Part shown: positions 5,032-17,548 of the stretch, in pieces
Position numbering within the stretch: the stretch's first letter is position 1
Layout: each line of letters starts with the position of its first letter
Source: Stenotrophomonas raiganjensis (SeqCode)
Lineage (GTDB): Bacteria; Pseudomonadota; Gammaproteobacteria; Xanthomonadales; Xanthomonadaceae
Direction of reading: 5' to 3'
DNA: 64,000 nucleotides
Assembly: GCF_030658505.1 (NCBI RefSeq)
Contig: NZ_JAUTXR010000109.1
Span: forward strand, 1 to 64,000
Translations under genes and position numbers: made by a program
The notes under the pieces: generated by a model
Seen by the model: the letters and a program-made list of their open reading frames with translations, nothing else
The model's database searches: none
Told to the model about the DNA's origin: nothing

Positions 5032-5414
5032 TTCCTGCCCGATTGCCGGATCGATGGCGTCCGGCCCTGGCGGCAGACGCTGCGCTCCCCAGTGGGTCTT
5101 CACCTCGATTGTCGCAGCGCAGCGACGGACGCCCGAGCGCCTGCATGAACTGGATCACCCGTCACATATCTACATATGTGAATAGGGTTTCGCGTGGTTC
5201 CGACACGATCTTCATGACGCCCTCACCTGCCGTGCACTATTCCAGCACGGCGACCCATTCAGCTGAATACGTCAGTGAACGGCGTTTGAACCCAATCGGT
5301 GTCGCTGCAGGCGTTTCAGATTAATTGCATGGCCCAGGCAAGACCCGATCCGCACAGTGCCGCCTCCGGCCCTGCGGATGCAGGTCCCACCCAACGTTCC
5401 AAGGAGACACATCC
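5032..5414. promoter_or_regulatory. Intergenic region with two dyads before the autotransporter
   Basis: No credible gene is seen. The region is more AT-rich than its surroundings from about 5160 on. It holds a CACATA-N6-TATGTG inverted repeat (5163-5180) and a perfect 12-bp palindrome ATTCAGCTGAAT (5257-5268). Either could be a regulator site for the downstream autotransporter. An AAGGAG ribosome-binding site (about 5400-5405) precedes ATG 5415. Confidence 0.4.
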
Positions 5415-6011
5415 ATGCGCATGATGCAGTTCACACCGAAGATTGCTTCCACTTTTGTCCGATCACGGCTGAGCCAGATTATTGCCACCGCATTGATTCT
5501 GGCCGGTGGAGCGTCGTGGGCGCAGGCCCAGTCGATCGGCCCGGGGCAGACGCTCGTGATCACGCCGGGCAGCCCTCGCGAAGGCACCCAAGTATCGTTG
5601 GCTGGTGGAACGCTCATTGTTCGCGACGCGAACGTAGGCAGGATCAGTTCGGCTTCAACTGCAGGTGGTCAGCCGTCAAGCATCCAACTGTACGGCGCAA
5701 CGCTCAACAACGCCTCAACAAGCCCGAGCCAGGTTGCAAACAGCAATGCCATCCTTGATAACTCAACAGTTCTCGGCGGCATGACGCTCTCTTCGCAACG
5801 ACATTCCCCCGAGCGCCCCCGCGCTTCAATCACAGCAAACGAAAGCCAGATCAGCGGGCATTCTTTCGCACTCAATGCAAACGCCGGCGGCACCTTGAAT
5901 GCCAGCAGGACACAATTGACCAGCGACATGATTGCCATTCGAATTGGTGCTGCTGCGGTCAACCTTCGGAGTGGATCAGCGCCATTGGCGAAGAAAATGG
6001 CATCAGGATGA
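5415..6011 (+). pseudogene. Autotransporter, N-terminal fragment (frameshifted)
   Basis: Encodes a start with an extended signal peptide (MRMMQFTPKIASTF...ALILAGGASWAQAQ, cleavage near residue 38). It is followed by a Ser/Thr/Asn-rich passenger typical of beta-helix autotransporters (GGTLIVRDANVGR, GATLNNASTS, DNSTVLGGMTLSS). It ends at a TGA at 6009-6011 without a beta-barrel. The remaining protein continues in another frame in the next ORF. In that second frame the reading upstream of its ATG (WISAIGEENGIRMSYSTV) is open and autotransporter-like, so the two parts were once one gene of about 798 codons. The indel lies roughly within 5930-5995. It is either a real inactivation or an assembly error. 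Confidence 0.75.
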
Positions 6012-7810
6012 GCTATTCCACCGTGCTCGCTGCCGAGTCTCCCGACAGCTCCTACTGGGGATTGCTCGTAGATGATTCGCGGCTGGAAGGGCGAGCCGGA
6101 GCCGCATTGTCGCTTGCTGCTGGGACGCACCCTGAAGTCATGCGAGTCGCCCTGCAGAACAATGCCGTTCTGGTCGGAGGCAATGGGAATATCATTGAGA
6201 TCGGTAGCGATGCTGCCTATGACATCACCGCCCGCACCTCCACGCTCAAGGGCGATATCACCATCGCCGATACCGCCACCGGCGCGCTGCGCTTCCTTGA
6301 CGGCCTCGACCTCACCGGCCGCATCCTCGGCCCGGCCGATGTCACCGTCGATCAGGGCGGCCGCTGGACGCTGTCCGGCGACAGCAACACCGGCAACCTC
6401 ACCCTGGGTGCGGGCAGCGACATCTTCCTCGGTGCTGCGGGTACGGCGGCGTATCCGCAGCTGACCGTCAACGGCAACTACGCCGGCAACGGCGGCACCC
6501 TGCACTTCAACACGGTGCTGGCCGGCGACGACGCAGCAAGCTCGCGCATGCACGTGACCGGTGATACCAGCGGCACCACCCAGGTCACCGTCAACAACAT
6601 TGCCGGCGCTGGCGCACAGACCGTCAACGGCATTCCGCTGGTGCAGGTGGACGGTGCCAGCAATGGCCGCCTCGCACTGCAGGGCCGCGCCATCGGTGGC
6701 ATGTACGAGTATTTCCTGCGCAAGGGCACACCCGGCGCGACCAACGGCAACTGGTACCTGACCTCGGCCTACACCGGCGATCCGTGCGACATCAATCCGG
6801 CGCTGCCGGAGTGCAAGCCTGTGGATCCGACCGACCCGACCGACCCGGTTGATCCGGTGGACCCGGAAGTGCCGGTCGACCCGGTCCCCGTGCTGCGTCC
6901 GGAGCCCGGAGCGTACCTGGCCAACCAGGCCGCGGCCGTGCAGATGTTCCAGCTGCGTCGCCACGACCGTGGCGAGCCCGGTTTCGACCGCGCCCGCATC
7001 GGTACCTGGGTGCGCGCCGGGCGTGACCAGCTGCAGGCGAACGTGGCCGGCCAGGTCGATGCCCGCACCCACATCAACACCCTGCAACTGGGCAGTGATG
7101 TCTGGCGCTGGGGCGATGGCCGCGGCCAGGTCGGCGTGATGCTCGGCAGCGGCGAGGCGACCACGCAGGCGGTGTCGACGCTGAGCGGCTATGGCACCCG
7201 CGGCAAGGTCAAGGGCAAGTCGGCCGGTGTCTACCTGGGCTGGGTGCAGGATGCACAGAGCAGTGCCGGCCTGTATGTGGACGGCTGGCTGCAGGCGGCG
7301 CGCTTCGACAACGAGGTGCAGGGCGAAGGCATTGCCCGTGAGACTTACGACTCCAGGACCCGCAGCGCGTCGCTGGAAGCCGGCTATGCCTGGGCCATCC
7401 GCAGCAGCGAGGCCAGCACGCTGTACCTGCAGCCGCAGGCGCAGCTGACCTGGACCGACTACGACGGCGACAGCCTGGTCGAGGCCAATGGCACCACGGT
7501 CGAGGATGGTCGTGGCGGTGGCCTCAACAGCCGCCTCGGCGTGCGCCTGTTTGGCCAGGGCACCCTGCAGGGCAACCGCGTGCAGCCGTTCCTGGCAGCG
7601 AACTGGCTGCGTGGCCAGCGCGATGAGTCGATGCGCTTCAACAGCGAGTCGTTGAGCGCGAAGACGCCGGAGAACCGCTACGAAGTGCAGGCCGGTGCCC
7701 AGCTGCAGCTGGGCCAGCGCTGGAGCGCATGGGGTGACCTGCGCGTGCAGCGTGGCGACAGCGGCTACCGCAACCACGGTGCCCAGGTGGGTCTGCGCGC
7801 CGCCTGGTAA
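6008..7810 (+). pseudogene. Autotransporter, passenger C-terminus and beta-barrel fragment
   Basis: 600 residues in the +2 frame, overlapping the first fragment by ATGA. Residues ~1-250 continue the beta-helical passenger and end in a pertactin-like junction (GNWYLTSAYTGD). Next comes a Pro/Asp/Val linker (PVDPTDPTDPVDPVDPEVPVDP, about 275-300). The last ~290 residues form the autotransporter barrel, starting FQLRRHDRGEPGFDRARIGTWVR and ending in aromatic W (GLRAAW). It has no signal peptide of its own and so could not be exported alone. The intact barrel suggests the frameshift is recent or artefactual. Similar proteins act in adhesion or autoaggregation; no enzymatic passenger motif was found. 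Confidence 0.78.
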
Positions 7811-7863
7811 GGCCCCTCGCCGCCCTGGGCCCCACCCGGGGCGGCGTTCCTCGATGCTCCATC

Positions 7864-7896
7864 GAACCCTGCCGGGCATGACATCCGGCAGGGTTC
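7864..7896 (+). terminator. Hairpin downstream of the autotransporter
   Basis: Perfect 12-bp stem GAACCCTGCCGG / CCGGCAGGGTTC around a 9-nt loop, 54 nt after the autotransporter stop. The following T-tract is weak, so termination efficiency is uncertain. A second GC stem (GCCGCCC/GGGCGGC) lies just before it. Confidence 0.55.
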
Positions 7897-7979
7897 TGGC
7901 GCTTATTTGTAATGTTATAACACTGTCGTCCGCGATGTTCTGATCCCGCTTTCGGCTTCGTGATTGCACGGACTTATTT

Positions 7980-7997
7980 ATATAGCCGTTGCTATAT
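7980..7997. promoter_or_regulatory. MntR box upstream of the TonB receptor
   Basis: Perfect inverted repeat ATATAGC-CGTT-GCTATAT (7-4-7). Its core TAGC-N4-GCTA matches the known E. coli MntR box (AAACATAGC-N4-GCTATGTTT) and the site before mntH at 11414-11429. It lies 75 bp before the receptor ATG in an AT-rich promoter region. Another palindrome, TGTTATAACA (7913-7922), lies 58 bp further upstream. Control by manganese through MntR is inferred from the shared motif and the neighbouring mntR gene. Confidence 0.75.
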
Positions 7998-8071
7998 CTA
8001 TAACCCTCTGCTTTCATATGCGTCAGCCAGGTCGCCCTCGCCGCCTTTCCTCTCCCAAGGACGACGCCTTC

Positions 8072-10231
8072 ATGCCCGTTGCCACACCCCTCTTCCATCG
8101 GCTGCCCCTGGCCGCCGCCATCGCCCTGACCCTGCCGCTGCCCGCACTGGCCGCCACACCGAAGCCGACCGAGCTGGACCGCGTGCAGGTGAAGGTCAGC
8201 ACCGCCACACGCAGCGAACGCCTGCTGTCCGATGTCCCGATCCGCACCGAAGTGCTGCGCAAGGAAGACATCGCGCTGCGCGCGGCCACCGACTTCTCGC
8301 GTGCCGCCGAGCTGATCAACGGCCTGCGCGTGGAAAGCAACTGCCAGAACTGCAACACCAGCGAAGTACAGTTGCTGGGCCTGCCCGGTGCCTACAACCA
8401 GCTGTTGTTCGACGGTATCCCGCTGCTGTCCACGCTGGGCAGCGTGTACGGCCTGGAACAGATCCCGGCCGGGTTCGTCGACCGCATCGAAGTGGTCAAG
8501 GGCGGTGGCTCGGCGCTGTACGGCCCGGGTGCGGTTGCCGGTGTGATCAACCTGATTCCGCCGCTGCCGGCGCGCAGCGGTGGCCATGTGCAGGCCGGCG
8601 TGGATGTCCTGAAAGGCACGCCGCAGAAGAACACCGACGTGCGGCTGGACCTGGTGGCGAAGGACGCCGACGCCGGGCTTTCAGTGATCGCCCAGCGCAA
8701 CTGGAACAGTGGCATCGACTACAACGGTGACGGCTATACCGAGATCACCCGCAAGAACCTCAAGGTCGGCGGACTGCAGGCCTGGTACGCGCCCACGCCG
8801 GGCACGCGGCTGCGCCTGGACCTGCAGGTGACCGATGAAATCCGGCGTGGCGGCAACCGACTGGAGCAGCCGGAATACCTGGCCAACATCGCCGAATCGC
8901 TGGATACGAAATACCGGCGAGGCAGCGTGTCGTGGGACCAGGAGATCAATGCCGACGTCGATTTCCGCCTGGCCTACGCCTTCGCCGACATCGACCGCGA
9001 CAGTTTCTATGGCGGCCTGGGCGACGTCGTCACCGATCCCTCAGCACCCGGCTATGACCCGTCGCAGCTGGACCCCAACGTCGCCGGCAGCGCAGCCTCG
9101 CGTTCGTGGCGCCAGTACGGCCGCACCCACAACCCGCTGCACTACATCGACAGCCAGTTGAACTGGCGGTTGGGCGCGCACGCGCTGGCCTTCGGCGTGC
9201 AGTACAAGCACGAGGCGCTGCGCGACGACAACCGCACCGGTGACGGGCAGCGTATTGCCGTGCTGGAGGATGCGACCTTCCACAACCTGGGCGCCTTCAT
9301 CCAGGACGAGTGGAGCCTGCGCGACAGCGTCGACCTGGTACTGGGTGCGCGCGTGGACAAGAGCTCGGAACTGGACAGCGCAGTGTTCTCGCCGCGCATC
9401 GCGCTGGCCTGGCAGGCCACGCCGAACCTTAAGTGGCGGGCCGGTATCGCCACCGGCTTCCGCGCCCCGGAGATCTTCGTCGAGGATGTGCATGTCGATA
9501 CGCTGGGTGGCGAACAGGTGCGCGTGCGCAACACCGACGGCCTGAAGGAAGAGCGTGCGTTGACCACCCTGTTCGGCTTCGACTGGCGATCGGACCCGGC
9601 CAATCCGGTGTGGAGCTGGGATGCCACCGCCTCGTATGCGCGCATCCGCGACACCTTCGCACTGGGCGAGATCCAGCGCGGTGATGATGGACAGTTGAGC
9701 CAGCTGCGATACAACGCGTCCGGCTCCAACGTGCTGGGCGCGGAAACCAACCTGGGTTGGCAGCCATCGCCGCAATGGCGCCTGACTGCCGGGGCTTCGT
9801 GGTACCGCTCGCGCTTCCGCGAACCACAGCGCATCTTCGACGATACCGGCGATGGTGGCGACACCGTCATCGAAAGCCGCGATTACCTGAAGACCCCGCG
9901 CTGGACCGGCCTTGCCCAGCTAAGCTGGATGCCGGCCGAGCCGTGGGAGACCTTCGTCGCGCTGCGCCACACCGGCCCGATGTCGGTGCTGAACAACCGG
10001 TTGGGCGAACTGCACCGCACGCGTTCATTCCTGGTGACCGACCTGGGTGCGCGCTGGCATCGTCACCTGGGCGCGCAGGCGCAGCAGGAAGTGTCGGTGG
10101 CCGCAGGCGTCAAGAACGTGTTCGATCAGCGCCAGAAGGATCTGGAAGTCGGCGCGCTGCGCGACAGCGACTATGTCTATGGGCCGCGTTTCGCGCGCTC
10201 GTGGTACGTCAACCTGCGCTATGCGTTCTGA
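8072..10231 (+). CDS. TonB-dependent receptor, probable Mn(II) outer-membrane importer
   Basis: 719 residues: signal peptide (cleavage ~ALA-A28), plug domain ~45-160 and a 22-strand barrel ending in F (NLRYAF). Plug motifs include RAAELINGLRVE, LLFDGIPLL and VDRIEVVKGGGSALYGPGAVAGVINLI. The only two cysteines form a CxxC (C91QNC94) in the plug. GFRAPEIFVEDVHV is the usual TonB-receptor barrel motif. The upstream MntR box, and the linked redoxin, mntR and mntH genes, suggest manganese as substrate rather than iron; no Fur box was seen. Its stop overlaps the next gene. Substrate assignment is inference; a cobalamin or siderophore receptor is the alternative. Confidence 0.85.
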   Translation: MPVATPLFHRLPLAAAIALTLPLPALAATPKPTELDRVQVKVSTATRSERLLSDVPIRTEVLRKEDIALRAATDFSRAAELINGLRVESNCQNCNTSEVQLLGLPGAYNQLLFDGIPLLSTLGSVYGLEQIPAGFVDRIEVVKGGGSALYGPGAVAGVINLIPPLPARSGGHVQAGVDVLKGTPQKNTDVRLDLVAKDADAGLSVIAQRNWNSGIDYNGDGYTEITRKNLKVGGLQAWYAPTPGTRLRLDLQVTDEIRRGGNRLEQPEYLANIAESLDTKYRRGSVSWDQEINADVDFRLAYAFADIDRDSFYGGLGDVVTDPSAPGYDPSQLDPNVAGSAASRSWRQYGRTHNPLHYIDSQLNWRLGAHALAFGVQYKHEALRDDNRTGDGQRIAVLEDATFHNLGAFIQDEWSLRDSVDLVLGARVDKSSELDSAVFSPRIALAWQATPNLKWRAGIATGFRAPEIFVEDVHVDTLGGEQVRVRNTDGLKEERALTTLFGFDWRSDPANPVWSWDATASYARIRDTFALGEIQRGDDGQLSQLRYNASGSNVLGAETNLGWQPSPQWRLTAGASWYRSRFREPQRIFDDTGDGGDTVIESRDYLKTPRWTGLAQLSWMPAEPWETFVALRHTGPMSVLNNRLGELHRTRSFLVTDLGARWHRHLGAQAQQEVSVAAGVKNVFDQRQKDLEVGALRDSDYVYGPRFARSWYVNLRYAF

Positions 10232-10781
10232 TCCACTACGAGCGTTGTTGCTGGCCTGTGCCGTGCTGCTGGCCGCACCGGCGATGGCTGCGGACCTGCA
10301 TGCGCAGGTCTCGACCTCGCTGATGCGGCCGGAACAGCGCTCGCTGCGGCCGATGCAGTGGCCATCGCCACCCAAGCTGGTGGCGTTGTACTTCGGCGCC
10401 GACTGGTGCGCGCCCTGCCATGCTTTCGTACCCACCCTGCGCAGCGTGCGTGATGCGCTGCGCGAGGCCGGCGCCGATACCGAAGTGGTGTACGTCAGCC
10501 TGGATGAGAGCGAGAGCGCGCTGCGCCGCTACATGCACGCGCAGGACATGCCATGGCCGGTGCTGGACCCCCGCCGCGCCGCGCGCATGCCCACGCTACA
10601 GGCATTGGCCGGATTGGCACCGCCGAACCTGGTGCTGATCGATGCCGACGGCACGGTGCTGGCCAATGGCTGGCAAGGCCGGCGCTATGAAGGCCTGCAG
10701 CCGGTGTTGAAGGAATGGGCGAAGCAGGCGTGTGCGCAGCAGCAGGCCCGTTGTCCCAACGCCGGCATCCAATCGCGGTAG
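10221..10781 (+). CDS. Periplasmic thioredoxin-like (nucleoredoxin-type) protein
   Basis: 186 residues with a signal peptide (MRSDPLRALLLACAVLLAAPAMA-AD). The thioredoxin fold has the redox motif WCAPC (C63, C66), followed by FVPTLRSVRDALREAGADTEVVYVSLDESE and a cis-Pro region (APPNLVLIDADG), the TlpA/tryparedoxin pattern. Its ATG lies 11 bp inside the receptor gene, so the two are translationally coupled and share the MntR box. The receptor's only cysteines are a plug-domain CxxC, so a redox partnership is plausible but unproven. The TAG stop codon is the TAG of a GTAG repeat element. Confidence 0.85.
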   Translation: MRSDPLRALLLACAVLLAAPAMAADLHAQVSTSLMRPEQRSLRPMQWPSPPKLVALYFGADWCAPCHAFVPTLRSVRDALREAGADTEVVYVSLDESESALRRYMHAQDMPWPVLDPRRAARMPTLQALAGLAPPNLVLIDADGTVLANGWQGRRYEGLQPVLKEWAKQACAQQQARCPNAGIQSR

Positions 10782-10848
10782 CGCCGGTCCATGCCCGGCG
10801 AAAGCCATGAAGGCGGCGACGCGCCCGCCGGGCATCGCCCGGCGCTAC
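10778..10848. repeat. GTAG-type REP dimer between redoxin and mntR
   Basis: GTAGCGCCGGTCCATGCCCGGCG facing GCCGGGCATCGCCCGGCGCTAC gives two complementary arms around a short spacer with an extra GGCGGCGACGCGCCCGCC stem. It separates the convergent redoxin and mntR genes and probably acts as a bidirectional terminator. The left GTAG supplies the redoxin stop codon, and a further GTAG (10851-10854, minus strand) supplies the mntR stop. Confidence 0.75.
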
Positions 10849-10850
10849 CG

Positions 10851-11321
10851 CTACGGCGCCCCGCCCTCGGCCTTGCGCACGAACGCTTCGAACAATGCCA
10901 GCGTCTGTTCGCTGACATGGTGCTCGATGCCCTCGGCATCACGCCGCGCGGTATCCGCGTCCACGCCCAGTGCCAGCAGGAAACGCTCCACGGTCTGGTG
11001 ACGCTGGCGGCTGGCATGGGCCAGCGCCTCGCCTTCCGGGGTCAGGAACACGCCACGATACGGGCGCTGCACCACCCAGCCATCACGAGCCAACCGCCGC
11101 AGCATCTTCGCCACCGTGGGCTGGGCCACGCCCAGGCGGGTGGCGATATCGACCTGGCGGGCCTCGCCGCCATCGGCCAGCAGGTCCGAGATCAGCTCGA
11201 CATAGTCCTCCACCAGCTCCATCCGGTGCGCCTCGCGCACTTGCCGGAAGCTCTCGACCTGGCGCTCGGCCTCGATCAAGGGGGTGCTTTTCAGCGATGT
11301 CGAATCGTCGGTCTTGCCCAC
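10851..11321 (-). CDS. mntR: Manganese-responsive DtxR-family repressor
   Basis: 156 residues, almost the same length as E. coli MntR (155). A winged helix occupies ~50-105, with the recognition helix in [26 protein letters not shown]. Metal-binding acidic/His residues are seen in [11 protein letters not shown] and GIEHHVSE, as in the MntR subgroup; no SH3-like third domain is present. It is divergent from mntH, and their shared 117-bp region holds an MntR box. It probably represses mntH and the TonB receptor when Mn(II) is replete. The start codon is an ATG followed by a 30-residue polar extension typical of proteobacterial MntR. Confidence 0.93.
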
Positions 11322-11413
11322 GCCTGCGCCTGTCCTTCCGGGGTGATCCGGTGTTGAACCTGAATTCTGGACCAGTAACGCGATAAAGACGATTGTTTCA
11401 CATTGCTAATGAC

Positions 11414-11429
11414 TATAGCAGGAGCTATA
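11414..11429. promoter_or_regulatory. MntR box upstream of mntH
   Basis: TATAGC-AGGA-GCTATA, a perfect 6-4-6 inverted repeat nearly identical to the site at 7980-7997. It ends 9 bp before the mntH ATG. Its spacer contains the AGGAG that probably serves as ribosome-binding site, so bound MntR would cover the -10/transcription start zone. A weak TTGTTT (11393-11398) could be the -35. Confidence 0.75.
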
Positions 11430-11438
11430 TTCGGACCC

Positions 11439-12770
11439 ATGAACACCCTGGCGCCCCGCGACCCTTCGGCCCCCACCCCGGCCAGCCTGGGCGCGCTCAA
11501 CGCCTCGGTGGCGGTGCCCGACAAGGGCCACTGGTGGTTCCGCCTGCTGGCCTTCCTCGGCCCGGGCTACATGATCTCGGTCGGCTACATGGACCCGGGC
11601 AACTGGGCCACCGACCTCGCCGGCGGTTCGCGCTTCGGCTACCTGCTGCTGTCGGTCATCCTCATCTCCAACCTGATGGCGGTGATCCTGCAGGCGCTGT
11701 CGGCACGGCTCGGCATCGCCACCGGCATGGACCTCGCGCAGGCCTGCCGCGCCCGCTACCCGAAGCCGGTGAACCTGGCACTTTGGGCGCTGTGCGAGGC
11801 GGCGATCATCGCCTGCGACCTGGCCGAAGTGATCGGCACCGCCATCGCATTGAAGCTGCTGTTCGATCTGCCCCTGCTCTGGGGTGCGGTCATCACCGCG
11901 CTGGATACCCTGCTGGTGCTGCTGCTGATGAACCGCGGCTTCCGCGCACTGGAAGCGTTCGTGATCGCGCTGCTGATGGTGATCTTTGCCTGCTTCATGG
12001 TGCAGATCGCGATGGCGGCGCCGCCGGTGATGGCGGTGCTGGGCGGCTTCATTCCGCGAGCACAGGTGGTGACCGATCCACACGCGCTGTACATCGCCAT
12101 CGGCATCATTGGTGCGACAGTGATGCCGCACAACCTCTATCTGCATTCGTCCATCGTGCAGACCCGCGCCTACCCGCGCACCGATGAAGGTCGCCGCAGC
12201 GCCCTGCGCTGGGCAGTGACCGACAGCACCCTTGCGCTGACCCTGGCACTGTTCATCAACGCCAGCATCCTGATCCTGGCGGCAGCCGTGTTCCATGCCA
12301 ATGGCCGATTCGATGTGGAAGACATCGAACAGGCCCACCAGCTGCTGGCGCCGATGCTGGGCGTGGGCGCGGCGGCGACGTTGTTCGCGGTGGCGCTGCT
12401 GGCCTCGGGCCTGAATTCGACAGTGACCGCCACCCTGGCCGGCCAGATCGTGATGGAAGGTTTCCTGCACCTGCGCCTGCCGCCGTGGCTGCGACGGCTG
12501 ATCACCCGTGCGCTGGCGATCATCCCCGTGGTGGTGGTGATCATGCTGTTCGGGGACCAGGGCGCGGTGAAGCTGCTGGTACTGAGCCAGGTGGTGCTGT
12601 CGATGCAGCTGCCGTTCGCGATCATCCCGCTGGTGCGGATCGTGACCGACAAGGTGACGATGGGCGCACTGGTGGCGCCGCGTTGGCTGGGCGCGATGGC
12701 CTGGGTGATCGCGCTGGTGATCGTGGTGTTGAACGTGAAGCTGCTGGTGGATACCTTCAGCGGCGGATAG
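11439..12770 (+). CDS. mntH: NRAMP Mn(II)/H+ symporter
   Basis: Imports Mn(II) across the inner membrane using the proton gradient. 443 residues with about 11 membrane helices. The NRAMP metal-site motifs are exact: DPGN at 52-55 in helix 1 and MPHN at 229-232 in helix 6 ([17 protein letters not shown]). ATG 11439 is chosen; an in-frame upstream ATG at 11403 would run through the MntR box. It is divergent from mntR and preceded by an MntR box. Together with the TonB receptor it would give a two-membrane Mn route. Confidence 0.95.
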
Positions 12771-12792: not shown

Positions 12793-12862
12793 TGTAGAGT
12801 CGAGCCATGCTCGACTCATCGCACCCGGCACGAACAGCAGCCGAGCATGGCTCGGCTCTACA
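12793..12862. repeat. GTAG-type REP dimer between mntH and the nrd operon
   Basis: TGTAGAGTCGAGCCATGCTCGACT faces AGCCGAGCATGGCTCGGCTCTACA, the GTAGAGCCGAGC variant of the element. It lies between the convergent mntH and thioredoxin genes and likely terminates both. Its CTAC end overlaps the thioredoxin stop codon (TAG on the minus strand). Confidence 0.8.
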
Positions 12863-13184
12863 AATGCAGCGCGATCGCGGCCTCGATCTGCTGCGGCGAC
12901 TGGAACCCGGCAAGGCGCGTGCGTTCGTCGCCGTCACGGAACAACGCCAGCGTAGGCGTCTGGCGCAGGCCCAGCTGCCTGAAGAACGCCTCGCCCAGCA
13001 CCTCCAACTGCACGCGCAACAGGGTGGTGCCCTGCCCCGCCACGCTGTTGGCCACGCGATGCAGCGACATCTCCAGCATCCGGCAGCCGGGGCACTGGTC
13101 CTTGTGGAAATCCACCAGCACCCGCGGGTGTTCGGCCAGCAGCCGCTGGAACTGCTCAGGCGTGGTGGCGTCGATGATCTGCAT
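12858..13184 (-). CDS. Thioredoxin-family protein of the nrd operon
   Basis: 108 residues, cytoplasmic, thioredoxin fold with VLVDFHKDQCPGCRML: the active site is CPGC rather than WCGPC. A cis-Pro follows in LRQTPTLALFRDGDE, and a C-terminal helix ends in IALHL. Start taken at the ATG giving MQIIDATTPEQ; upstream in-frame codons overlap the flavodoxin gene. As last gene of nrdA-nrdB-flavodoxin-thioredoxin it is probably the dedicated disulfide reductant for ribonucleotide reductase, by analogy with NrdH. The missing Trp before the CxxC is unusual for a general thioredoxin. Confidence 0.85.
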   Translation of the reverse strand: MQIIDATTPEQFQRLLAEHPRVLVDFHKDQCPGCRMLEMSLHRVANSVAGQGTTLLRVQLEVLGEAFFRQLGLRQTPTLALFRDGDERTRLAGFQSPQQIEAAIALHL

Positions 13185-13698
13185 CGGTGTTGCTCCAGTA
13201 GTGGGCCAGGACCGCATCGGTCCACGCATTGATGGCCTCGGCGTGGCGAACGCCATGCGGCATCTGTTCGATCTCCAGCGGCGGGTAGTCGCTGTGGAAG
13301 TAGCGGATCAGCCGGTGCACGGCGCCGCAGTAGTACTCCTGCCCCCACTGCGTCTCGCCGGTGCCGAACACCGCCAGCTGCCGCGGCCGCTCGCCGCGTT
13401 CGGCAATACCGGCCACCCACGCCTTCATCTCCGACGGCGTGCGGCCGCCGTTGTCAGTCCAGCAGCCCAGCAGCACCAGGTCGGCCTCATCGGCCGCCAG
13501 TGGCGGCGCCTGGCGCAGGTCGTCCGCCTCCTGCCAGTGCACCGCATGGCCGGCGGCGCGGCAGCGCTCGACGATCTGCCGGCCGAGTTCGCGGGTGTTG
13601 CCGCTCAAGGAGGCGACCACCACCAGGATGCTCAGCGCGGCGCTGGGCTCAGAGGTCGTCGAAGCCGTTGTCGACGTTGGTCTTCTTGTAACTTGCAT
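13156..13698 (-). CDS. Flavodoxin (NrdI-like role) in the nrd operon
   Basis: A flavodoxin-fold protein with the FMN phosphate loop ASLSGNTRELG and later flavin-contacting loops LLGCWTDNGGRTPSEMKAWV and AVFGTGETQWGQEYYCGAV. The only in-frame ATG (13698) lies 49 bp inside nrdB. The homologous part begins around ALSILVVVAS, about 22 codons later, so a GTG/CTG start near 13630 is possible. Its end overlaps the thioredoxin start by 29 bp. In class Ib systems the flavodoxin NrdI activates the Mn cofactor of NrdF. Here a different-looking flavodoxin sits in the same operon position with nrdAB. A specific NrdI function is inference. Confidence 0.8.
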   Translation of the reverse strand: MQVTRRPTSTTASTTSEPSAALSILVVVASLSGNTRELGRQIVERCRAAGHAVHWQEADDLRQAPPLAADEADLVLLGCWTDNGGRTPSEMKAWVAGIAERGERPRQLAVFGTGETQWGQEYYCGAVHRLIRYFHSDYPPLEIEQMPHGVRHAEAINAWTDAVLAHYWSNTDADHRRHHA

Positions 13699-14689
13699 TG
13701 CGCATCTCGAAGAAGTCGGTCTTGGTTTCGGTGAAGTTGTCGGCGTAGGCCTTGATCCACGGCATCACGTTGTCGGCGGTGTCGCTGTACAGGCGCTCGA
13801 TGCCGAGCATGCCGGCCATCTTGTTGGCGCGGTACTTCACGTAGCGCACCATCTCGTCCACATCGATGCCGTCGATGCCATCCAGCACCTCCGACGACCA
13901 CTGCGTCTCCAGCTCGATGGCATGCTCGAACGATTGGTGCACATAGGCAGTCAACTCGTTGGTCTGCAGCTCCGGGTTCTCGCCGATGATGGCGCGGATC
14001 AGCTCGCTGATGAACTTCGTGTGCGCCAGCTCGTCACGGTTGATGAAGCTGATGATCTTGCCGGTGCCGTTCATGCGGTTCTGCCGCACCATGTTGTAGA
14101 AGTACGCGAACCCGGAATAGAAATTGATGCCCTCCAGGATCGAGGACTGGATCAACGACTTCAGCAGGGTCTCGGCGGTCTTCTCGCGCATGAAATCGTC
14201 ATACGCCCCCATGATCGGCGCATTGCGCTTGATGATGGTCGGGTGAGTACGGGCGATCTCGAAGATGCGGTTCTGGTTCGGCAGGTCGGTGATCGAGGCC
14301 AGCACGTAACTGTAGCTCTCGTTGTGGATCACTTCCTGCTGCCCGATGATCGCCGCATTGGCGTGCGCGGCCGGGTCGGTGATGTACTCGGCCACGTTGT
14401 AGATGAAGCGCGTCTGCGGTGAATCGAGCGTGGCGAGCAGGCCGATGATCGAGTCGTAGGCGTTCTTCTCGCGCGCGTTGAGCTCGCCGTACTGGCGGGC
14501 ATCCAGCTTCATGTCGACCTCGTCGGGAATCCAGAAGTTGGTCGACAGCTCCTTGTAGGCCCGATAGAACGACGGGTACGGGATGTCGTTCCAGTTGAGG
14601 ATGCCGCTGGTGCGGCCGTTGATGATGCCGGTGCTGCGGTTGGGATGGCGCGGTTCGAGGATCTTGATGCGGTCGAGGGGGGTTGCCAT
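13649..14689 (-). CDS. nrdB: Ribonucleoside-diphosphate reductase, beta (radical) subunit
   Basis: Holds the dimetal-tyrosyl radical that starts reduction of ribonucleotides. 346 residues. First-half ligands D89, E119 and H122 and the radical tyrosine Y126 (EVIHNESY) keep the spacing of E. coli R2 D84/E115/H118/Y122. The second set is in SSILEGINFYSGF and NRDELAH. The radical Tyr excludes the Tyr-modified or radical-less subclasses that lack it. The C-terminal tail (NVDNGFDDL) is the usual R1-docking acidic peptide. Downstream of nrdA with one repeat element in the gap; overlaps the flavodoxin ORF. Confidence 0.95.
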   Translation of the reverse strand: MATPLDRIKILEPRHPNRSTGIINGRTSGILNWNDIPYPSFYRAYKELSTNFWIPDEVDMKLDARQYGELNAREKNAYDSIIGLLATLDSPQTRFIYNVAEYITDPAAHANAAIIGQQEVIHNESYSYVLASITDLPNQNRIFEIARTHPTIIKRNAPIMGAYDDFMREKTAETLLKSLIQSSILEGINFYSGFAYFYNMVRQNRMNGTGKIISFINRDELAHTKFISELIRAIIGENPELQTNELTAYVHQSFEHAIELETQWSSEVLDGIDGIDVDEMVRYVKYRANKMAGMLGIERLYSDTADNVMPWIKAYADNFTETKTDFFEMRNASYKKTNVDNGFDDL

Positions 14690-14721
14690 GGGTTTCTGCC
14701 TTCGTTCTCTTTCTATCGTGT

Positions 14722-14744
14722 TGCCGGCCAGCGGCCGGCACTAC
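14722..14744. repeat. Single GTAG-type REP unit between nrdA and nrdB
   Basis: TGCCGGCCAGCGGCCGGCACTAC, one unit of the same family as 151-213, inside the 61-bp nrdA-nrdB gap. On the nrd transcript it would form one hairpin, possibly setting the ratio of the two subunits by attenuation or mRNA protection. Confidence 0.8.
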
Positions 14745-14750
14745 CATTGA

Positions 14751-17114
14751 TCAGCTGGAGCACCACTCGCATTCGCTGATGTCGATGTCGTTGGAGCGCA
14801 CGTAGTAGGTGGTCTTCAGGCCCTCGCGCCAGGCGCTCAGGTGCAGCTCCAGCAAGGTGCTGGCGCGGATGGTGCTGGGCACGTACAGGTTGAAGCTGAT
14901 CGACTGGTCGACATGGCGCTGGCGGCGCGCGTTCTGGCGCACGCTGGCGAACTGGTCGACCTTGTAGGCACCCTTCTCGTAGTACGGCCAGGTTTCCAGC
15001 GACAGGCCCGGCGCCGCCACCGGCCGCCGGAAGTCCTTCTTTTCCTCGTAGTAGAACGCGCTGTAGATCGGGTCGATCGAGGCCGTGGAGCCTGCAATCT
15101 GCGCGGTGCTCATATTCGGCGCCACCGCCAGCAGCCAGCCGTTGCGCAGGCCGTGCGTGGCCACTTCGTGGGCCAGGCTGTCCCACGCGGCGCCACTGTA
15201 GTCGCGGTCACGGAAGTAACGCCCGTTGTGCCAGTCACTACCCGCGAACATCGGGTAGCTGCCCTTCTCCTTCGCCAGCTGCGCGCTGGCCTGGATGGTC
15301 AGGAAATTGATGCGTTCGTAGAGCCGGTCGGCCAACGCCTCGGCATCCGGTGATTCCCAATGGATCGCCTGCTGCGCCAGCAGGTGGTGCCAACCGAACG
15401 TGCCCAGGCCGATGGCGCGGTACTTGCGGTTGGTGATCGTGGCCTGCGGCACCGGCAGCGCGTTGAGGTCGATCACGTTGTCGAGCATGCGCACCTGGAT
15501 CGGGATCAGGCGCTCCAGCACATCGGTGGCCAGCAGGTCATCCGGCGCGCTGATCGCGCGGCCGAGGTTGATCGAGGACAGGTTGCAGACCACGAAGTCA
15601 CCGGCACGGCGTGTGGTGACGATCTGGTCACCGCTGACGATCTCCTGGATCATCCGCGTCGGGCTCATGTTCTGCAGGATCTCGGTGCACAGGTTGCTGG
15701 AATAGACCATGCCCGCGTGCTTGTTCGGATTCCTGCGATTGACCTCGTCGCGGTAGAACAGGAACGGATTGCCGGTTTCCAGCTGGCTGAGCATGATCCG
15801 CTTGAACAGATCGATGGCCTTCACCGTGCGCCGGCTGATGCGCTCATCGGCCACCAGCTCGGCGTAGCGGTCGCGGAAGCTGCCCGCGCCGCGCTTTTCA
15901 TCGTAGAAGTCCTGCAGGTACCAGCCTTTGGCGCTCTTCACTTCGTGCGGATCGAACAGGTACCAGTCGGCGCGGCGTTCGACCGCTTCCATGAACAGAT
16001 CGGGCACGCACACCGAGGTGAACACATCGTGCGCACGCAGGCGCTGGTCGCCGTTGTTCAGGCGCAGATCGAGGAAGGCTTCGATATCGCGGTGCCAGAT
16101 GTCCAGGTACACCGCCACCGCGCCCTTGCGCTGGCCGAGCTGGTCCACTGACACAGCGGTGTTGTTGAGCTGCTTGATCCACGGCACCACGCCGCCGGAC
16201 GAATTCGGCACCCCGCGGATCGGCGCACCGCTGCTGCGCACATAGCCCAGGTAGGCACCCACGCCGCCGCCATGCTTGGAAACACGGGCGATATCGGTAT
16301 TGGAGTCATAGATGCCCTGCAGGCTGTCATCCACCGTGTCGATGAAGCAGCTGGACAGTTGGCCGCCCAACTTGCCGGCGTTGGCGAGGGTTGGCGTGGC
16401 CACCGTCATGTACAGGTTGGACAGCGCCCAGTACGCCTCGCCGACCAGCTGCATGCGGCGTTCTCGTGGCTTCTCTTCCTGCATCAGGTACAGCGCGATG
16501 GTCAGCCAGCGTTCCTGCGGCAGTTCGTAGACCTCGCGGCTGCGATCGCTGGCCAGGTAGCGCGTGGCCAGCAGGTACAGGCCGTTGTAGGCGAACAGGC
16601 GATCGCGCTCCGGGTCGATCATCTCGCCGGCCTGCTGCAGTTCTTCCTTGGAATAGCAGCGCAGGATGTCGTTGCTGTAGATGCCGCGGTCGGCCAGGCT
16701 TTCCTGCAGGCCCACGTAGGAGCCGTACTTCAGGCTGACATCGTAGAAGCGGTTGCGGCTGGCGCGCTTGTACAGGCGGCGCAGGTAGATGCGGGCGGCG
16801 AACTGTTCCCACTCCGGCGCGACCAGGTCCACGCGCGACTCGGCCTCGCGGATCAGCAGGTCGACCAGGTCATCGGCACTGAGGCTGGGCTTGCGCTCGA
16901 CCATCGCCTGCACCACGCGGCGGTAGTCGCTGACATCCAACTGCGGGAACTCGGCATGCACGGTGTCGATGCTGCGTTGCAGGCGCTCGGCGTCGAACGG
17001 CAGGCGGCGGTTGCCGGCCTCCTTGGTGATCCAGGTCGGCACGCGCTCGCCACCAGCGCGCAAGGCGTCGCCAGCGCCGGCCAGATCGGCCACGCGGAAG
17101 GTACTGTCGGTCAT
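14751..17114 (-). CDS. nrdA: Ribonucleoside-diphosphate reductase, alpha (catalytic) subunit
   Basis: Reduces NDPs to dNDPs. 787 residues from ATG 17114 (MTDSTFRVADLAGAG). An N-terminal ATP cone starts at PTWITKEAGNRRLPFDAERLQ, giving allosteric control by ATP/dATP. Catalytic residues: a Cys in GGQLSSCFIDTV, the N-x-C-x-E triad in SSNLCTEILQN, and a partner Cys in VVCNLSSINLGR. The C-terminal CEWC pair shuttles electrons from thioredoxin. It is the first gene of nrdA-nrdB-flavodoxin-thioredoxin. A longer frame upstream (to 17441) has no homology and is rejected. Confidence 0.96.
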   Translation of the reverse strand: MTDSTFRVADLAGAGDALRAGGERVPTWITKEAGNRRLPFDAERLQRSIDTVHAEFPQLDVSDYRRVVQAMVERKPSLSADDLVDLLIREAESRVDLVAPEWEQFAARIYLRRLYKRASRNRFYDVSLKYGSYVGLQESLADRGIYSNDILRCYSKEELQQAGEMIDPERDRLFAYNGLYLLATRYLASDRSREVYELPQERWLTIALYLMQEEKPRERRMQLVGEAYWALSNLYMTVATPTLANAGKLGGQLSSCFIDTVDDSLQGIYDSNTDIARVSKHGGGVGAYLGYVRSSGAPIRGVPNSSGGVVPWIKQLNNTAVSVDQLGQRKGAVAVYLDIWHRDIEAFLDLRLNNGDQRLRAHDVFTSVCVPDLFMEAVERRADWYLFDPHEVKSAKGWYLQDFYDEKRGAGSFRDRYAELVADERISRRTVKAIDLFKRIMLSQLETGNPFLFYRDEVNRRNPNKHAGMVYSSNLCTEILQNMSPTRMIQEIVSGDQIVTTRRAGDFVVCNLSSINLGRAISAPDDLLATDVLERLIPIQVRMLDNVIDLNALPVPQATITNRKYRAIGLGTFGWHHLLAQQAIHWESPDAEALADRLYERINFLTIQASAQLAKEKGSYPMFAGSDWHNGRYFRDRDYSGAAWDSLAHEVATHGLRNGWLLAVAPNMSTAQIAGSTASIDPIYSAFYYEEKKDFRRPVAAPGLSLETWPYYEKGAYKVDQFASVRQNARRQRHVDQSISFNLYVPSTIRASTLLELHLSAWREGLKTTYYVRSNDIDISECEWCSS

Positions 17115-17386
17115 GGTGGTGGAACTCCAGGCTCGCACGCGCGTTGGCGGTCGATGCCGTGGCGGCCCTGCACGCGATACCGGCGCACGGGGCGATCGGG
17201 GTGGGATGCCAAAGCGCGGGAACACCAGGTCGTCGGCAAAATTGCCTGCGCCTGCGGCCGGTATCCGGGCCGTGGGGGCGATCTGGGTCCGCACGATGGC
17301 GGCCGCGTCGACACGGCAAGCCTTCAGGGGCGGGCCGCGGGACGTTTGCTGCATGTCCGGCGGCGGCGGCTGACCGGGAGTGACGG

Positions 17387-17434
17387 CCACAACATAGTGG
17401 GGATATCCCGAACCGTCAACACAAGATGCGGTAA
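17387..17434 (-). promoter_or_regulatory. Candidate pair of NrdR boxes and nrdA leader
   Basis: CCACAACATAGTGGGG (17387-17402) and ACACAAGATGCGGTAA (17419-17434) each resemble the NrdR consensus acaCwAtATaTwGtgt (about 11 and 10 of 16 matches by eye). They start 32 bp apart, the three-helical-turn spacing usual for NrdR pairs upstream of nrd genes. They lie 270-320 bp before the nrdA ATG, leaving a long GC-rich leader (17115-17386) in which I see no gene. The match is partial. Confidence 0.42.
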
Positions 17435-17548
17435 TCAACACCTGTCGCGACGATCAGTCGCAGGATGCCGTGTTGCACCTGCATCGCCTTGTCGACCGCG
17501 CGCGCATCCCCAGTTCGGTACAACATCCACTTTCCCCGGAACACCGCC

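Follow-up and report, generated by a model that had tools for sequence, protein, structure and literature searches.

How scarce manganese (Mn) enters Gram-negative bacteria through the outer membrane is thinly documented, and a locus of Stenotrophomonas raiganjensis raises the question of whether a TonB-dependent receptor could provide such an entry. MnoT of Bradyrhizobium is reportedly an outer-membrane Mn transporter. The locus lies in the first 64,000 nucleotides of contig NZ_JAUTXR010000109.1, a stretch hereafter called the window, where the genes for a receptor and a redoxin stand next to mntR and mntH. From this arrangement, the original prediction proposed an Mn import system. Our favoured answer, to which we give a probability of about 0.6, is that the receptor serves a divalent metal when Mn is low, with Mn as the most likely cargo and zinc as the main rival.

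The receptor (P0001; 8072–10231, forward strand, ATG at 8072, 719 residues) has the Pfam Plug and TonB barrel domains. The ATG of the redoxin gene at 10221 overlaps the receptor stop, and the two form a receptor-redoxin operon. The redoxin (10221–10781, forward strand, 186 residues) is a thioredoxin-fold protein with a CAPC motif (Pfam Thioredoxin_8, 50.5 bits, cut-off 27), in which a signal peptide was seen by eye. On the reverse strand, mntR (10851–11321, GTG at 11321, 156 residues) matches the NCBIfam MntR equivalog NF008273 at 248 bits (cut-off 153), and its product can be aligned with E. coli MntR (2h09) over most of its length. The last of the four genes, mntH (11439–12770, forward strand, ATG at 11439, 443 residues), encodes an NRAMP Mn2+ importer (NCBIfam NF001923, 647.1 bits, cut-off 430). 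Coordinates and family matches agree with the predicted gene identities and with the position of mntR between receptor and mntH. The near-identical palindromes described before the receptor and mntH are also there, both matching TATAGC-N4-GCTATA with no mismatch: one MntR box at 7981–7996, 75 bases before the receptor ATG, and the other at 11414–11429, 9 bases before mntH. The mntH box sits inside a promoter-like TTGCTA-17-TATATT (11403–11431); a sigma-70 scan at the receptor found no sigma-70-like promoter.

Within the window, the pattern has only one further match, with three mismatches. Shuffled sequences would give 3.55 matches at up to three mismatches, a number that the total of three does not exceed, and therefore only the perfect matches carry weight. 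The 4.71 Mb genome holds exactly three perfect boxes, upstream of the receptor, mntH and an mntP-like gene (L003/L129); the last is also preceded by an Rfam Mn2+ riboswitch (RF00080, 46.8 bits, cut-off 45). Across 91 genomes of the genus there are 123 perfect boxes, compared to nine for the reversed pattern, and this control, with the genome-wide count, rules out chance as the source of the palindromes. The number of boxes tracks the presence of the receptor. Among the 33 genomes with the receptor, 26 have three perfect boxes, five have two, one has one and one has none, whereas the corresponding figures for the 58 genomes without it are 0, 11, 12 and 35. Where a receptor genome has fewer than three (seven genomes), the receptor box itself has one mismatch (L137, L148, L152, L154, L155, L156) or none (L153). 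At the 26 loci L131–L156, the receptor box is always kept (0 mismatches in 20, one in six) and lies 343–353 bases before the plug motif. We propose that receptor-redoxin, mntH and mntP constitute a three-locus MntR regulon. In Xanthomonas oryzae, MntR acts as an activator at the mntP (yebN) promoter, to which it binds, and Mn represses mntH through MntR, according to the part of that report available to us (PMC3136493).

The receptor-redoxin-mntR-mntH locus, its box and the Mn idea are already published. The locus orf2357-orf2358 (TBDR-pTFP) of S. maltophilia Sm18, described on 12 May 2026 (PMC13217887, here and below as far as its available text goes), is like that of the window in its genes, their order, the box, the distances, the CQNC motif of the plug and the CAPC redoxin; it also has mntR-mntH alongside and a third box at mntP. 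The window genome is another strain than Sm18, and S. maltophilia records contain receptors 99% identical to that of the window. The window locus has the traits of a CQNC-type TBDR-pTFP module, i.e., a CQNC plug, a downstream CAPC redoxin and a box ~75 bases before the receptor start. In Sm18 reporter fusions, the receptor promoter was active only without added Mn and iron, was silenced by 80 nM Mn and gained activity upon deletion of mntR (PMC13217887); the predicted control by MntR has thus been demonstrated by others, in wild type and mutant. Those authors suggest that the system serves metal acquisition, with CQNC as a possible Mn-coordinating site for which the redoxin would be the reductase. 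MnoT of Burkholderia, cited in the same paper, is likewise a TonB-type receptor tied to Mn scarcity, a likeness that we draw by description only. A literature search on CQNC and TonB found only PMC13217887, and one for reports tying RegPrecise to MntR and TonB found none.

Can the link to mntR be seen beyond the genus? At E-values up to 1e-180, the receptor occurs in 12 of 247 genomes of the family sample and in 33 of the 91 genus genomes; at 1e-150, it occurs in 3 of 398 genomes of the phylum sample and 2 of 369 of the class sample, all of this genus. A scan of one genome per species yielded 78 loci (L005–L082) among the best 80 of 295 relatives. All 15 Stenotrophomonas loci have the redoxin, mntR and mntH. 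Among the 63 loci outside the genus, the receptor has an mntR homologue within 8 kb in 17 (L025–L028, L030, L032–L036, L038–L040, L046, L061, L065, L066), and these belong to Luteimonas, Alphaproteobacteria and Verrucomicrobiota. This is a lower bound, since several contigs are short, and some pairs are near-copies (L035/L036, L025/L040). As a rough chance figure, one mntR per ~4.7 Mb gives 0.4% for 18 kb. Nine neighbouring regulators were scanned, of which seven passed an MntR cut-off; those of L052 and L054, outside the 17, failed. In a 65-row tree, which included 3 of the 15 Stenotrophomonas loci and omitted the split L046, all MntR-linked rows fall in one 40-row group (99/98) of Lysobacteraceae, Alphaproteobacteria and Verrucomicrobiota, and the other 25 rows contain none. 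The root was set for drawing only, and the 40-row set is therefore a grouping, not a dated origin. The L046 receptor (Cephaloticoccus primus, 7812–10105) reads as two overlapping open reading frames (ORFs), either a broken gene or a sequencing error.

The receptor box can also be found where mntR is not adjacent. In X. massiliensis (L019), X. codiaei (L020) and Xanthomonas sp. Leaf131 (L037), the 8 kb around the receptor contain no mntR, but the receptor box has one, zero and zero mismatches, respectively. Other sites with at most one mismatch in these genomes are at mntH/mntR in all three and at mntP in X. codiaei and Leaf131, besides one extra site per genome without a recognised Mn gene (L125, L109, L123). 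Two Xanthomonas genomes therefore hold all five genes and three boxes. The available text of PMC13217887 calls the full set exclusive to Stenotrophomonas, whereas here X. codiaei and Leaf131 have it at no more than one mismatch per box, a threshold that differs from the motif threshold used there. The expectation that orthologous receptors in relatives carry the box was thus borne out in 26 of 26 loci (L131–L156) and in the three Xanthomonas, but not in four Lysobacteraceae loci (L021–L024) discussed below.

Outside the Lysobacteraceae, the interval between mntR and receptor contains a perfect TAGC-N4-GCTA core in L030, L038 and L039 (equalled by no more than 0.004 of mononucleotide shuffles). 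One mismatch was found in L028, L034, L061 and L065 (0.05–0.11 of shuffles) and two or three in L046, L032, L035, L036, L066, L052 and L054 (0.58–1.0). At Opitutales receptors a different palindrome, TTTTGA-N4-TCAAAA, was seen. The copy at the receptor is the sole perfect site genome-wide in G259 and G260; G262 has four perfect sites, of which one belongs to the receptor and another precedes an ATP-binding cassette (ABC) ATPase-permease pair, and G261, G263 and G264 each have a single one away from the receptor.

The genes accompanying the receptor in these relatives bear on its cargo. In L027, L030, L046 and L061, genes for a binding protein, an ATPase and two permeases follow the receptor (in L027, the redoxin); those of L030 were checked as ZnuA, ABC and ABC-3. 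All four binding proteins have an [ST/C]EGAF motif with Glu as the third ligand, which we take to be the Mn/Fe type, and the nearest solved structures to that of L030 are YfeA and MntC. A TroA-like binding protein with His as the third ligand is found instead in L042 and L044, where a different thioredoxin (Thioredoxin_2/7) lies between it and the receptor; similar thioredoxins occur in L043, L047, L056 and L067. In L035 and L036, a multicopper oxidase (L035:3681-4907; L036:5442-6662) and a ZIP-like protein (Pfam Zip, 25 bits, below the cut-off of 35.1) are encoded between mntR and the receptor, the oxidase gene lying between mntR and the ZIP-like gene. With ABC operons and a ZIP-like protein beside the receptor, the place of MntH can therefore be taken by other divalent-metal importers.

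The receptor protein was modelled as a plugged barrel (mean pLDDT 85.5, pTM 0.85), for which BtuB, FyuA and CirA tie as nearest folds at 16–21% identity; this fold is common to them all and therefore says nothing on the cargo. The scores are far under the BtuB and CirA family cut-offs, with 50.3 of 599.7 bits for BtuB (TIGR01779), and P0001 likewise stays below the cut-off for TonB-copper receptors (TIGR01778, 30.5 of 472.45 bits). CQNC occupies residues 91–94 in the plug, at the turn between strands 85–91 and 96–101 (mean pLDDT 75 for residues 91–100). An alignment of 35 relatives shows no variation at its first Cys and the Gln and almost none at the second Cys (His in P0112). CQNC was considered as a mark of Mn receptors and rejected, as it is also found in Acidobacteriota, Aminicenantota, Planctomycetota and other loci with no mntR nearby. 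No neighbour of the 25 CQNC rows outside the MntR-linked tree group passes an MntR cut-off, the DtxR-family neighbours in L052 and L054 included. The Aminicenantota CQNC receptors (L068–L073, L077–L080, L082) are preceded by a small CPAC protein, which gave no Pfam match in the copy scanned (L073), and some have CusB- and TolC-like genes nearby (L070, L080). These receptors may serve another metal, such as copper.

Several points weigh against an Mn receptor with a dedicated redoxin. Thiols, as in CQNC, are poor Mn2+ ligands. The top NCBIfam model of the L030 binding protein is the zinc protein AztC (198.8 bits), followed by the Mn/Fe protein EfaA (193.1), both below cut-off. With two redoxin queries, no redoxin was found beside the receptor in the MntR-linked loci L028, L030, L046, L061 and L066 (L065, with a contig ending just past the receptor, is uninformative), and the idea that the redoxin is essential is weakened by these loci. 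In Sm18, part of the Mn response persists without MntR, and deletions of receptor and redoxin gave no growth phenotype (PMC13217887). Finally, at the four Lysobacteraceae loci L021–L024, which contain receptor and redoxin, the MntR box is missing (best site, three to six mismatches), and three of them, L021, L022 and L024, have a Zur-like box. No MntR match was found in the genomes of L023 and L024, and the single match in that of L021 has an in-frame TGA. In the L022 genome, both mntR and mntH are intact; a box with two mismatches lies between the two genes, and the receptor has none.

The Zur-like pattern, ATGTTATANTATAACAT, has three mismatches before the receptors of L021 and L024 and one at the L022 site. 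There, in Luteimonas panaciterrae, the box ATGTTATGTTATAACAT (7419–7435) is flanked by a gene for a GTPase resembling ZigA (568 bits, cut-off 600) and by a MerC-like gene, recognised by eye, that runs into the receptor gene. At up to three mismatches, ATGTTATANTATAACAT has 27 matches in eight genomes, compared to three for the reversed control; they include the L021 and L024 promoters and the L022 site but not L023. It is probably a Zur box, because matches stand at zigA-like genes in G000, the window genome (578.6 bits, below the cut-off of 600), and G250 (684.5, above), and at receptors in G257 and G251 for which ZnuD is the best model, well below its cut-off. Several matches have no recognised zinc gene, and in G253 the pattern is also beside siderophore-type receptors, which weakens the label there. 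The box of the window genome (G000:C173:16015-16031, L183) is, as at L022, between the ZigA-like gene and a MerC-like gene seen by eye.

The window promoter also contains a Zur-like element, TGTAATGTTATAACA (7908–7922, forward strand), upstream of the MntR box, with two mismatches in a core of 14. The form TGTRATGTTATAACA is conserved in 39 of 41 Stenotrophomonas receptor promoters, ~45–60 bases upstream of the MntR box, with a variant in L017 and L156; some of the 41 are one genome reached twice, and L011 and several same-genome loci were left out. In each of three genomes, the copy at the receptor is the only perfect one. The longer Zur-like pattern ATGTTATANTATAACAT at up to three mismatches matches the element in strain D457 (G257) but not in the window genome. 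The element could be the second input of the published promoter; by eye, it could also be read as an extended -10 promoter. A zinc sensor alone would not explain the iron and Mn responses in PMC13217887. The word Zur is absent from the available text of that paper, and a literature search on Zur, S. maltophilia and TonB returned nothing pertinent by title and abstract start.

Could the cargo be zinc, or both metals? In that case, Zur and MntR would both act in Stenotrophomonas and be swapped in relatives, and the CQNC thiols would bind Zn2+, kept reduced by the redoxin. The Zur-like boxes at the three loci without an MntR box, at zigA-like genes and at ZnuD-like receptors argue for it, as do the conserved promoter element and the TroA-type protein with a His third ligand in L042 and L044. 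ZnuD and other Zur-regulated zinc receptors are, like this one, metal-repressed, and a few relatives of the window receptor carry the Zur-like box. However, ZnuD (NF038289) is not among the 23 NCBIfam families matching P0001 at E-values up to 1e-3, the window element misses the longer pattern at three mismatches, the Zur label is not certain in view of G253, and Glu-type binding proteins are paired with the receptor at four loci. In addition, the published promoter, for which Mn and iron but not zinc were varied, responds to nanomolar Mn and to mntR (PMC13217887). We consider a zinc or dual receptor unlikely, if still a serious contender.

Distinctly less probable is a chelated cargo, i.e., siderophore-bound Mn(III) or Fe(III), with the redoxin helping reduction and release in the periplasm and Mn limitation as one trigger. 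This could account for the requirement for joint iron and Mn limitation in the published expression data (PMC13217887), and the multicopper oxidase adjoining the receptor in L035/L036 would fit. The siderophore-receptor model TIGR01783 spans the whole protein, but at 99.6 bits for a cut-off of 223.5. Among the selected neighbours that were annotated, no siderophore genes were found next to the receptor, and the partner importers belong to the kind that takes free divalent ions. An envelope or signalling receptor that responds to metal and has a redox role, without any import function, would agree with the silent deletions (PMC13217887), yet the operons with divalent-metal ABC importers and the repeated metal-regulator sites make this very improbable.

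We thus prefer a low-Mn divalent-metal receptor. The predicted Mn import is supported by the presence, in relatives, of mntR and of divalent-metal importers near the receptor, and Mn as cargo is likely on this indirect, genomic evidence; the silent deletions and the Zur-like box in some relatives leave that prediction only partly upheld. With enough Mn, MntR would occupy its box and keep the receptor off. Upon Mn shortage, the receptor would be made and would pass a divalent metal, most likely Mn2+ or an Mn chelate, through the outer membrane with TonB, after which MntH would move the metal across the inner membrane. A SitABCD-type ABC importer, or perhaps a ZIP-like protein, would take that place in relatives. 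The two CQNC cysteines of the plug are the probable target of the redoxin. The order of the genes, the boxes, the composition of the regulon, the conservation and the partner genes are read directly from the genomes; the cargo, the use of TonB and the redox role are what we infer. A broader reading, which we hold only tentatively and think doubtful as a whole, is that CQNC receptors form a cross-phylum family of divalent-metal importers in which MntR and Zur are swapped among close relatives. The Stenotrophomonas promoter would read both regulators, with the Zur-like element as the second published input, and the plug dithiol, served by the redoxin, would gate or reduce the cargo and so couple Mn/Zn entry to envelope redox. 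The place of the redoxin beside CQNC receptors is taken by two different thioredoxin families.

The surroundings of the locus can be described briefly. Convergent with mntH, on the reverse strand at 12858–17441, are a thioredoxin-like gene, a gene for a ribonucleotide-reductase-associated flavodoxin (243 bits, cut-off 104), nrdB (496, cut-off 310) and nrdA (1461, cut-off 1057). A flavodoxin adjoining a class I reductase may recall the Mn-using class Ib systems. On the other side, an autotransporter-like gene at 5325–7810 is apparently split over two frames, ORF 5325–6011 and an overlapping ORF 6008–7810 that carries the autochaperone and autotransporter barrel domains.

Compared with the available text of PMC13217887, which is silent on control by zinc, on ABC operons as partners and on mntR neighbours in other phyla, the present analysis adds the box at Xanthomonas receptors distant from mntR, the linkage to mntR in other phyla, the Mn/Fe-type ABC partners, CQNC receptors without mntR, the Zur-like boxes and the conserved Zur-like element of the Stenotrophomonas promoters. 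These comparative facts predict which metals to assay, a second regulator and a reason why deleting one gene might have no visible effect.

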